Notes under the pieces: generated by a model
Seen by the model: the letters and a program-made list of their open reading frames with translations, nothing else
What the model was told of the DNA's origin: nothing
The model's database searches: none
Assembly (NCBI RefSeq): GCF_019656075.1
Contig: NZ_BPKZ01000007.1
Location: 1 to 64,000, forward strand
Length of the DNA stretch: 64,000 bases
Direction: 5' to 3'
Origin: Leuconostoc palmae
Lineage (GTDB): Bacteria > Bacillota > Bacilli > Lactobacillales > Lactobacillaceae
Program-made: the position numbers and the translations under genes
Shown here: piece after piece, positions 4,638-45,293 of the stretch
Layout: every line of letters starts with the position of its first letter
Position numbering within the stretch: position 1 is the stretch's first letter

Positions 4638-4856
4638 AGTACTATCCTCCATTTTTTTAATATTAAAACAATCATCGTTAATTCTAATCTAATTATATCA
4701 ATGTTAGGATTAAAACACGATTGATATACGTTATGTGTTTCTGAAATAACCGTTAAACAACTGCTATTGAGACCGTATAAAGAATAAATTTTAAGAAAAT
4801 ACATAATGTTCGTGTTCAATCGTGCTACAATTAGCAAGTCGAAAGACAAATAAAAC

Positions 4857-4946
4857 AGGGGTAGATATTTGTGCGTTAAGTGTGAAGGAGACGGAATGTG
4901 AGCCTTCAACGAAATGTCATTGACATGCGATGCAAATATCACATTC
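4857..4946 (+). ncRNA. THF (tetrahydrofolate) riboswitch
   Basis: All expected elements can be traced. GATATTTG (4864-4871) pairs with CAAATATC (4933-4940). The conserved GCGTTAAGTG begins at 4874. The hairpin GAAGG/CCTTC (4884-4888 with 4903-4907) is followed by CAACGAA. The pseudoknot GAATGTG (4894-4900) pairs with CACATTC (4940-4946). Downstream, TTCACC/GGTGAA and CTCC/GGAG (4976-4979 with 4984-4987) can form hairpins, the last covering the Shine-Dalgarno of folT, which points to translational control. An extended -10 (TGCTACAAT) lies upstream near 4833. This class typically precedes folT or folE. Confidence 0.88.
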
Positions 4947-4997
4947 ACCAATAAATATATTATTTGCGGTGAACACTCCACTCGGAGGTTCAGAACA

Positions 4998-14583: not shown

Positions 14584-14943
14584 ATGTTTGCAAACATTAT
14601 AACGAGTTTAGTTGCTGTTGAAGCAATTATTATTATGGCTGTTGAAATGTTCGGATCAACCGCACAATAAGCTAAAGCTTTTGATTTCAAAAAGAATGTT
14701 GTTCAGATACCTGAGGTTAAGGTATTATTGGCTAATCAAGGTGTTTATAATGGCTTGTTTGGATTACTTATTTTAATCACAATGTTGCTATTGTCTGTAC
14801 CGCAACAAACCTTGATGCTTCAGTTAGAAATGTTGTTTATTATCATAGTTGCCGTATATGGTAGTTTAACAGCATCACGTAAAATTATAGTCATTCAAGG
14901 ATTACCAGCAATTATTGCGCTTATTGCGTTGTACCTCAAGTAA
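14584..14943 (+). pseudogene. DUF1304 membrane protein with an in-frame ochre codon
   Basis: ATG 14584 reads MFANIITSLVAVEAIIIMAV to FGSTAQ, hits TAA at 14668-14670, and the same frame continues AKAFDF onward through three hydrophobic helices to the stop at 14941-14943. Family members have an uninterrupted protein of about 119 residues with A-K-A-F at this place, so CAA to TAA is the simplest origin. Downstream reinitiation could give a 71-residue piece lacking helix 1. GGAAGAATAA lies just upstream of the start. Confidence 0.85.
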
Positions 14944-20796: not shown

Positions 20797-20812
20797 GAAA
20801 ACAATGAGAAAA

Positions 20813-20970
20813 TCATAGAGGTTGCTACAAACAAGAGTCACTTGTGGAGTATGAATAGATACTGTGAAGCAAGTAAAAGGGGATGTAGCCGAAGCGCTGA
20901 AACTATTCAATCAGTTAGCTGGGGCATAAGTTAATAGCTTATGAACTGTCGCAGTTGCGGGGTGCTATGA
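20813..20970 (+). ncRNA. Lysine riboswitch (L box)
   Basis: P1 is TCATAG (20813-20818) with CTATGA (20965-20970). Conserved lysine-element sequences occur in order: AGAGGTTGC, GTAGCCGAAGCGC near 20885, GCTGGGGCAT near 20918 and ACTGTCGCAG near 20944. A rho-independent terminator lies 22 nt downstream, so high lysine should stop transcription before alr-asd. The presence of asd, an aspartate-pathway gene, in the operon agrees with this. Confidence 0.9.
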
Positions 20971-20991
20971 CAGATACGATTGTTTTTGACA

Positions 20992-24260: not shown

Positions 24261-24563
24261 AATAGAAATGATTAACCACAACATAATTAAAATATGATGG
24301 CGTAAAGTAGTTTGTTGTTATATCAGAGTGATACAATCAAAAATTGATAGAATAATAATAATTGTTAAAAATAGCACATGATAATGTCATGTTTCCTGTC
24401 ATGAATTTAGACTAATCTTATCAAAACAAGTAAAATATTTATTAGAACAGAATGGGGTTTACAGACTGCAATTAAGAATATTCTTAATTGTGCTGTCGCC
24501 TTTTTTTGTATCAGAGCTAATTGCTCCGTATGGAAGAGTACAAGAATAAGGAGAAGTTTACGC
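24261..24563. other. Intergenic region before the glutamine-type ABC operon
   Basis: This 303-bp stretch contains the hairpin listed at 24464-24507 and a short GAGC-TAATT-GCTC dyad near 24517-24529. No small ORF with a ribosome binding site and no known riboswitch consensus was recognised. A TTGATA-like -35 candidate near 24343 is not convincing. Confidence 0.4.
24464..24507 (+). terminator. Hairpin with T7 tail ahead of glnQ (terminator or attenuator)
   Basis: CAATTAAGAA and TTCTTAATTG pair around a 2-base turn, with GC and AC/GT extensions, and TTTTTTT at 24501-24507. It is 200 bp after the YdcF stop but only 57 bp before the glnQ start, so it could be a leader attenuator of the ABC operon rather than the end of the upstream transcript. 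Confidence 0.5.
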
Positions 24564-41018: not shown

Positions 41019-41233
41019 AATTACCTCCATTGGATAACAGTCCTTTATGCTAGTTTTCAGGTTAGTTTTATTAGTCTCATTATACAATAGGATTGACATG
41101 TTTTGTAAAATTGCACCGAATGACTTTTGGACTATACTTTGTTTAAAAATCCGGTCAATTTAACGTATAATATAATGAAGAATAATTAATGGAGGAAACT
41201 CGACCTGTTAAAGATAGGACGGGAAAACTACTA

Positions 41234-41773
41234 ATGCGTGGATTTGAAATTGTTTCATCTAAAACTAATCAGGAACTCAATTTACCAAAAAGAAGTACAC
41301 AAGCTGCGGCAGGCTATGATTTTGAAGCCTCAGAAGATACGGTAATTCCAAGTGCCTTTAGTAATCCTTTTTTTAAAGGGTTGACTGTTTTAACATTAGG
41401 TAAATTAAAAAATGTAAGAGACAATGAAGACTTGCAATCTATGCTCAAGCCGGTACTTGTACCTACAGGTATCAAAGCTTATATGAATGAAGGAGAATAC
41501 TTACAACTTGTTTCACGATCAAGTGGTCCCATTAAGAAACGTATTATGATGCCTAATGCTGTTGGGATTGTTGATGCTGATTATTATAACAATCCATCCA
41601 ACGAGGGAGAGATATTTTTCCAATTTATTAATTTTGGTATTAAAGATGTTGTTATTAAAAAAGGAGAGCGTATTGGGCAAGGAATTTTCTTACCGTATTT
41701 ATTAGCGGAAGGTGATGAGAACACTGAAAAAGCTCAGAGATCAGGTGGATTTGGTTCTACAGGACAAAATTAA
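41234..41773 (+). CDS. dut: dUTP diphosphatase
   Basis: A 179-residue trimeric-type dUTPase with all five motifs: AAGYDFEASED, SRSSGPIKKR, NAVGIVDADYYNN, KGERIGQGIFLPY and RSGGFGSTGQ. It hydrolyses dUTP to dUMP. Between motif 1 and LVPTGIKAYM there is an extra segment of about 30 residues (SAFSNPFFKGLTVLTLGKLK region), which related LAB enzymes also show. The start MRGFEIV at 41234 matches family N-termini; the upstream ATG 41189 coincides with a GGAGG sequence and is less likely. It is followed closely by radA. Confidence 0.9.
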   Translation: MRGFEIVSSKTNQELNLPKRSTQAAAGYDFEASEDTVIPSAFSNPFFKGLTVLTLGKLKNVRDNEDLQSMLKPVLVPTGIKAYMNEGEYLQLVSRSSGPIKKRIMMPNAVGIVDADYYNNPSNEGEIFFQFINFGIKDVVIKKGERIGQGIFLPYLLAEGDENTEKAQRSGGFGSTGQN

Positions 41774-41790
41774 ATTGAAGGAGAAATACT

Positions 41791-43158
41791 ATCGCAAAAG
41801 TAAAAACGCAATTTATTTGTTCTAACTGTGGCTTTATATCTGCGCGCTATTTAGGCAGATGCACCAATTGTGGCGAATGGGGAACTTTTGTTGAAGAAAA
41901 GATTCAAGCAGAGACAAATGATCGAAAAAGCCGTGTGAGTTTGGATGGACGTGCTGCTAAAGTTGAAAAAATTAACGAAGTTACTTCACAAGAAACCTCA
42001 CGAGTAGCTACCAATTTAAAAGAATTGAATCGTGTTTTAGGTGGGGGGGTTGTACCTGGATCGATGGTACTGATTGGTGGTGATCCTGGTATCGGAAAAT
42101 CAACTTTGTTGTTACAAGTTTCGGGCCAATTAGCACATGAAGGGCGCGTTTTATATGTTACAGGCGAGGAATCAGCAACTCAGGTTAAACTGCGTGCAGA
42201 TCGCTTAGGTGTAGGTAATGATAGTTTTTACTTATATCCAGAAACCGATATGACAGCGATTAAAACACAAATAGATAAATTAAATCCAGACTTTGTTATT
42301 ATTGATTCGGTTCAAACCATGCAAGAGCCTGATGTTACTTCAGCAATTGGATCAGTATCTCAAATACGTGAGGTTACGGCTGATTTATTGCAAATTTCTA
42401 AAACTAACAATATTTCTGTATTCATTGTTGGGCATGTAACGAAAGACGGGGCTATTGCAGGTCCTAAAATTCTTGAACATATGGTTGATACAGTTTTGTA
42501 TTTTGAAGGTGACAGTAATTATAAATATCGTATTTTGCGTGCGGTTAAAAATCGTTTTGGTGCAACAAACGAACTGGGTATTTTTGAAATGAGAAATGGT
42601 GGTTTGATTGAAGTTGCCAATCCTTCAGAAATTTTCTTAGAAGAACGTCTAGCTGGTGCAACCGGATCTGCTATTGTTGTTGCTTTAGAGGGATCACGCC
42701 CAATACTAGTCGAATTACAAGCCTTAGTTACGCCAACTGTTTTTGGGAATGCGCAGCGCACCGCTTCAGGATTAGACCGTAATCGAGTGTCATTAATTAT
42801 GGCAGTTCTGGAAAAACGTGCAAATTTGCTTTTACAAAACCAAGATGCCTATTTGAAAGCTGCTGGTGGTGTAAAGTTGGATGAACCAGCTATTGATTTA
42901 GCAATTGCAATTGCTTTAGCAAGTTCGTACCATGATAAGGAGTCGCGCTCAAGTGATGTTTTTGTTGGCGAAATTGGGCTTACTGGTGAAGTGAGAAGTG
43001 TAGCAGATATTGAAGGTAGACTGAAAGAAGCGAAAAAATTAGGATTCAAGCGTGCAATCGTTCCAAAAAATAACTTGCATGGCATAGATTTACCAAATGG
43101 TATACAGGTTATTGGCGTATCAACTTTGAGTGAAGCATTGAAAATAGCACTGGATTAA
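41791..43158 (+). CDS. radA: DNA repair protein RadA, apparently starting at AUC
   Basis: The coding frame opens at ATC 41791 with [15 protein letters not shown], just where family members begin M-A-K-x-K-T-x-F-x-C. GAAGGAG lies 7 nt upstream of ATC, and no ATG, GTG or TTG exists in frame until GTG 41935, which would delete the zinc finger (C-x2-C...C-x2-C, CSNCG and CTNCG). The rest is complete: Walker [11 protein letters not shown], RadA K-N-R-F-G motif ([13 protein letters not shown]) and a C-terminal Lon-like domain ([17 protein letters not shown]). About 456 residues. RadA aids branch migration in recombination. It follows dut by 17 bp. Confidence 0.9.
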
Positions 43159-45137: not shown

Positions 45138-45293
45138 TGATTAAGTGGTTGATTTTAGTCTCAGTATATTAAAGATGTTGTAGGGTAGTATAAACATTTT
45201 ATTAAGTAGTAGTCCTAGTAACGTACACATTTTTGTGTATGTTTTTTATTTGTGAATAACTATTTTAAGTTAACTTATATATTTTAGTAAGAC

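Follow-up and report, generated by a model that had tools for sequence, protein, structure and literature searches.

Weak and probably regulatory start codons are already known from the bacterial genes infC, pcnB, ccpN and cvfC1. The infC gene, which encodes initiation factor IF3, is described as starting with AUU in E. coli and with AUA in S. aureus (PMC1780047, PMC13009471). In S. aureus, conserved AUA/AUU starts with extended Shine-Dalgarno (SD) motifs are described for infC, ccpN and cvfC1; of the fusions measured, those of cvfC1, ccpN and an AUA start of citZ reached ~10 percent of the AUG level in poor medium, and the ccpN fusion gave up to 30 percent of AUG in rich medium (PMC13009471).

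Natural AUC starts in bacteria seem to be little documented. The papers listed by our literature search on AUC/ATC start codons dealt mostly with mitochondrial and eukaryotic cases, and the two bacterial cases that we considered were an engineered mutation (PMC10303841) and a gene copy of doubtful function (PMC10210955). In the first of these, the start codon of a B. subtilis rny-lacZ fusion was mutated to AUC, which led to much lower, still regulated expression, so that AUC can initiate weakly in a relative.

We describe the radA gene of Leuconostoc palmae, located in a stretch of 64,000 nucleotides that we call the window, which appears to be translated from an AUC codon. Among the known weak starts radA is new, and it is notable for the codon AUC, for the gene itself, and for the two origins that its weak start appears to have had. 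Literature searches over open-licence full texts, several of which yielded mainly unrelated papers, found no report of an AUC start for radA; a word search found no mention of a non-canonical radA start in the main text of the pneumococcal papers PMC11708029, PMC6212727, PMC5512693, PMC9426450 and PMC11701578, and the terms "AUC" and "radA" have no occurrences in the main text of PMC13009471.

Results and Discussion

The radA start site in L. palmae

An earlier note on this DNA had proposed that the RadA frame, including both N-terminal cysteine pairs, extends back to ATC 41791, and this is borne out: the protein read from that codon matches TIGR00416 (sms/radA) with 642.4 bits against a cut-off of 403.05, residues 1-450 aligning with model positions 1-454. 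The N-terminal C4 zinc finger is present, as judged from its CxxC pairs and from a zinc ribbon model. From the upstream stop to the ATC, the in-frame codons read TGA AGG AGA AAT ACT; with only AGG, AGA, AAT and ACT in between, there is no ATG, GTG or TTG 5' of the start. Two further statements of the note hold equally well, namely that a GAAGGAG motif is found at good spacing before the ATC, and that no in-frame ATG, GTG or TTG occurs before GTG 41935, from which translation would yield a RadA lacking both cysteine pairs and thus its zinc finger.

Table 1. Positions of the radA start region, its neighbour and other elements in the window
Feature	Position	Strand	Remarks
dut (dUTPase family)	41189..41773	+	Pfam dUTPase above cut-off; matches to NCBIfam dut models fall short of the cut-offs
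Shine-Dalgarno GAAGGAG	41777..41783	+	7 nt 5' of the AUC
Predicted AUC initiation codon of radA	41791..41793	+	ATC at the matching codon in 19/19 Leuconostoc genomes
radA CDS as read from AUC, 455 codons + stop	41791..43158	+	TIGR00416 match; single match in own genome
N-terminal zinc finger, CxxC at codons 10-13 and 24-27	41818..41871	+	Zinc ribbon model, residues 8-35
First in-frame NTG (GTG, codon 49)	41935..41937	+	3' of both CxxC pairs; not conserved as an alternative start
THF riboswitch aptamer	4855..4952	+	Above gathering score (Rfam)
DUF1304 gene	14584..14943	+	In-frame stop at 14668 after 28 codons; Pfam above cut-off for the part after the stop
Lysine riboswitch aptamer	20808..20975	+	Above gathering score (Rfam)
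Inverted repeat + T run	24468..24507		Upstream of ABC-transporter ATP-binding gene (ATG 24564); attenuator/terminator-like (by eye); no Rfam match

In principle, AUC could be a strong rather than a weak start if a dedicated initiator-like tRNA with anticodon GAU were available. We regard this as exceedingly improbable: among the 48 tRNA matches in the draft genome of our strain, as read by ARAGORN, there is no special AUC initiator tRNA; they include one tRNA-Ile(GAU), whose sequence lacks the features of an initiator, together with an initiator-like tRNA-Met(CAU).

Conservation of the ATC codon across Leuconostoc

The comparison of radA starts across Leuconostoc genomes that the earlier note had proposed gave ATC at the homologous codon in 19/19 genomes, our own included, when the start regions were read on the coding strand. 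The radA genes of L. inhae and L. holzapfelii start with ATC; their records (L004 and L014) are already among the 19 and are not extra counts. One further genome (G004) has radA in two overlapping pieces, and here, too, the start is ATC. No in-frame ATG, GTG or TTG lies between the upstream stop and the ATC in any of the 19. The SD sequence is likewise shared, with AGGAG ending 7 nt upstream of the ATC in 14 genomes, whereas the remaining 5 have AAGGA 7-8 nt before it (by eye).

These data also settle a point that the note had raised, i.e., whether the ATC might be a base error or a mutation of ATG in this one strain. The rarity of AUC starts is all that speaks for such a reading, together with a precedent in Neisseria, where an ATG-to-ATC change was given as the likely reason for an unannotated gene copy of unclear function (PMC10210955). 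Since 18 other Leuconostoc genomes, including those of L. inhae and L. holzapfelii, have ATC as well, both versions are refuted, and we give them practically no credence.

To judge how unusual the constancy of this codon is, codon statistics were compiled for the 18 full-length Leuconostoc radA genes, all of which start with ATC. The 19 other columns that contain isoleucine throughout have ATT 279 times, ATA 32 times and ATC 31 times (342 codons); just 2 of these columns have the same codon in every gene, and no column is ATC throughout. Among 134 conserved fourfold-degenerate columns, the third base is invariant in one, and 81 show all four bases. Compared with synonymous sites, the third-position C of the start is thus far more strongly conserved, and the start ATC does not behave like an elongator isoleucine codon. 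As far as can be read from such patterns, the AUC codon itself is under purifying selection across Leuconostoc.

A different reading is that translation begins at an internal NTG codon, GTG 41935 or one further downstream, to give a RadA without the zinc finger. While GTG 41935 is indeed the first in-frame NTG in the window, the matching codon is GTG in only 12/18 Leuconostoc genes, the remaining 6 having GTC or GTA, and an alternative start at this place is thus not shared. Moreover, the SD sequence sits before the AUC, and the residues preceding GTG 41935 are conserved as protein, both CxxC pairs included: in the relative G012, 46 of 52 aligned residues before the first NTG are identical and there is no stop (the 52 include 4 codons 5' of the ATC). 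We thus consider an internal start very unlikely. A gene finder limited to ATG, GTG and TTG would lose the zinc finger of RadA in Leuconostoc and in Streptococcus.

The comparison with G012 was part of a screen for weak starts in 49 genes of the window that had a match in a 160-kb stretch of that genome or at its radA locus, and radA is the clear outlier among them. Lesser signals, listed from the top 8, were found at 45269, 63043, 32337 and 27592. Three further candidates were rejected as weak-start genes: 24411 is an ordinary ATG gene with a chance extension, 30230 is an apparent overlap with the upstream frame, and 14671 belongs to the interrupted DUF1304 gene. The latter, two riboswitch aptamers and an inverted repeat elsewhere in the window are included in Table 1 as observations in their own right.

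Start codons of radA in Streptococcus and other groups

Outside Leuconostoc, we found comparable starts in Streptococcus. In the following, AUH denotes AUC or AUA starts, and NUG denotes the ATG/GTG/TTG class. In 71 Streptococcus genomes, radA starts with ATC in 48, ATA in 10, ATG in 12, GTG in 1 and ATT in 0, so that 58/71 are AUH; a second radA copy in genome G314 (L244) was left out of this count. Most of the sampled streptococci, among them S. mitis, a relative of the pneumococcus, therefore have an AUH start of radA. For 70 of 79 Streptococcus AUH rows there is no in-frame NTG within 60 nt upstream (one of these reaches no stop), while 9 have one. The structure chain 5lkm, which we take to be the solved pneumococcal RadA, aligns with S. 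mitis RadA beginning directly behind the start residue, at residue 2 of the chain. Two Streptococcus genomes have an additional, incomplete match to the N-terminal portion of radA, situated within 1 kb ahead of the full-length one (G295:C50:5566-5739 and G235:C16:2894-3049).

The same division appears in a set of 80 named loci from the GTDB collection, where both Leuconostoc rows have ATC and 20/21 Streptococcus rows have ATC or ATA. Elsewhere, canonical starts prevail. Among the 24 best non-Leuconostoc radA loci of the family, obtained by searching 151 genomes, every start is ATG or GTG, and 120 other parsed rows, mostly from Lactobacillales, have ATG (61), GTG (33) or TTG (26); these are rows rather than genomes because some entries occur in both the named and the unnamed collection (L045 is L004 and L046 is L014, for instance), and the second fragment of G004 (L020) was left out. 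Seven rows were not parsed (L070, L084, L113, L291, L293, L294 and L298); by eye they have ATG except for L291, which is ambiguous between a TTG start and an ATC one codon later. From a further 121 genomes of Bacilli, 50 rows (the top 30 plus 20 selected ones, L344 included) all have ATG, GTG or TTG, and 20 rows chosen from 101 genomes of further Bacillota have ATG (7), GTG (6), TTG (5) or CTG (2), both by eye. The apparent CTG starts belong to L388 and L390, 2 of the 20 genomes sampled from Bacillota outside Bacilli. Among the parsed Bacillota rows there is thus no AUC, AUA or AUU start of radA outside Leuconostoc and Streptococcus, L291 being ambiguous among those not parsed.

An alternative to selection for a weak start is that AUC is a start without regulation, fixed by chance in two ancestors and kept simply because some initiation codon is needed. 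RadA is described as needed in low amounts (PMC11708029), so a weak start may be tolerated; in addition, some Streptococcus species have ATG or GTG at this position (13/71 genomes), and the weak start is therefore dispensable there. Against chance, ATG, GTG, TTG, ATA and ATT are each only one or two base changes away from ATC but are seen in none of the 19 Leuconostoc genomes, and the start has stayed ATC in the same genes in which most fourfold-degenerate columns have run through all four bases. ATT is absent from the Streptococcus starts as well, and since ATT is the commonest codon at conserved isoleucines of Streptococcus radA (350/602 in 43 genes), codon bias does not account for its being missing from the start. 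Chance fixation thus appears unlikely to us, and selection on the codon is the reading that we prefer.

Phylogeny of RadA

To place the AUH starts, a RadA protein tree was calculated from 134 chosen rows, leaving out the start residue; this was a quick tree with a simple model. Leuconostoc lies inside Lactobacillaceae, adjoining Fructobacillus, with which the nearest-row group g2 also clusters. Streptococcus groups with Lactococcus and Enterococcus in the opposite half. On this tree the start class changes at least 6 times. A single clade of Leuconostoc plus all Streptococcus tree rows was rejected by the AU test (p-AU 4e-56), as was a clade of the AUH rows alone (p-AU 2.5e-6); the former is the fairer test, because NUG Streptococcus rows lie among the AUH rows. 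As judged from the tree, the weak radA start arose independently in Leuconostoc and Streptococcus, and an AUH start inherited from one common ancestor and lost everywhere else would be far less parsimonious.

Upstream gene, SD strength and folding at the start

In L. palmae, the gap between the stop of dut and the AUC of radA is 17 nt. Both the upstream gene and the stop-to-start distance differ among Leuconostoc genomes, while the ATC of radA is constant. In seven genomes (L002, L003, L006, L008, L014, L015 and L016), a frame other than dut ends a few bases from the AUC start or overlaps it; here the AUC was kept although the neighbour changed. In several of the 24 nearest non-Leuconostoc loci, the radA start overlaps or closely follows the dut stop.

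A tentative possibility is that the weak codon accompanies the loss of tight coupling to dut, in that radA has ATG or GTG where it starts at most 12 nt after the dut stop, while AUH is found only where the genes are uncoupled. Within Streptococcus, tight coupling is seen in 6/13 NUG vs 0/58 AUH genomes (Fisher p 1.2e-5, uncorrected for relatedness), and among the tree rows in 18/77 NUG vs 0/57 AUH. However, this reduces to 3 phylogenetically independent pairs on supported branches, for which a sign test is not significant, and 59 NUG rows in the tree are uncoupled. A loss of coupling may in any case be compatible with the selected weak start that we favor.

We also considered whether weak codons are generally compensated by stronger SD sequences, but pairing energies lead us to reject this as a general rule. 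AUH starts do not exceed the ATG starts of other genera in SD pairing (p 0.45), and their pairing is weaker than at GTG/TTG starts of other genera; within Streptococcus, the difference between AUH and NUG starts is borderline (p 0.051). Folding of the radA start region is weak in Leuconostoc (a median of -2.2 kcal/mol over 14 distinct sequences), while folding at Streptococcus AUH starts is only slightly weaker than in other genera (-5.2 vs -6.2 kcal/mol). No Rfam match to an RNA element was found at the radA leader.

AUC as a probable limiter of RadA synthesis

Taken together, we think it likely that radA really starts at this AUC, and that the codon is a weak start under selection, which restricts the synthesis of RadA and probably responds to IF3. 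Initiation at this codon is well supported by sequence comparison; a low output of RadA would follow by analogy with other weak starts, and we are less sure of the IF3 sensitivity. In the mechanism that we propose, radA would be translated from AUC 41791 by the ordinary initiator tRNA, guided by the SD sequence. The third-position mismatch would make initiation inefficient, so that the AUC, kept by selection across Leuconostoc and matched by an independent weak AUH start in Streptococcus, could act as a dosage limiter for RadA, which is presumed to be needed in small amounts as the helicase partner of RecA. Because IF3 discriminates against AUN codons, RadA output might also move with IF3 activity, together with that of infC, which has AUA in both genera.

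Several observations point in this direction. An odd start that is conserved in all Leuconostoc examined and has a separate origin in Streptococcus suggests that the rate of RadA synthesis is being limited, and the appearance of such a conserved start twice in one gene points to selection on the codon as dosage control. The weak expression from published AUN and AUC starts leads us to infer that the AUC would limit RadA dosage. The earlier note had suggested a real regulated start as one option, and as far as sequence goes this is supported by the conservation and selection of the codon, the SD sequence, the two origins, and the presence of infC at an AUN codon. We further speculate, with considerable doubt, that radA was recruited twice to an IF3-sensitive AUN set with infC, tying RadA, recombination and branch migration to the state of translation, and that AUC and AUA were chosen, and AUU avoided, for a particular sensitivity.

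Comparison with known weak starts

With the conserved AUN starts described before, radA shares the lack of any in-frame ATG, GTG or TTG between the upstream stop and the codon (19/19 Leuconostoc genomes), the SD spacing and the conservation across species. The likeness is close to ccpN (AUA) and cvfC1 (AUU) of S. aureus, for which a non-canonical AUN start conserved across species and a strong SD sequence are likewise described (PMC13009471). Those, however, are other genes with AUA or AUU, and their starts were measured by Ribo-Ret and luciferase, while that of radA is predicted here from comparative genomics.

The comparison with infC, whose AUN start is the textbook case of a codon discriminated by IF3, can be made within the same genomes. 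In 19/19 Leuconostoc genomes infC is at ATA, without an in-frame ATG, GTG or TTG before it, and in Streptococcus it is at ATA in 25/25 genomes with a match (26 searched). In 22 of these 25 rows an in-frame GTG overlaps the SD sequence a few codons before the ATA, which leaves L368, L369 and L371 as the only rows where the start must be ATA. Thus infC resembles radA in having an AUN start, in both genera. Unlike radA, infC is autoregulated by its own product IF3, which itself reads the codon; the product of radA is a RadA-family ATPase and not the discriminating factor, and RadA, as a DNA helicase, cannot autoregulate in this manner.

Another start of this kind is reportedly found in pcnB of E. 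coli, whose AUU start is attributed to Binns and Masters (2002). The two cases differ in gene, phylum and codon, AUU rather than AUC, and pcnB is like radA in that a weak start reportedly limits the expression of a chromosomal gene.
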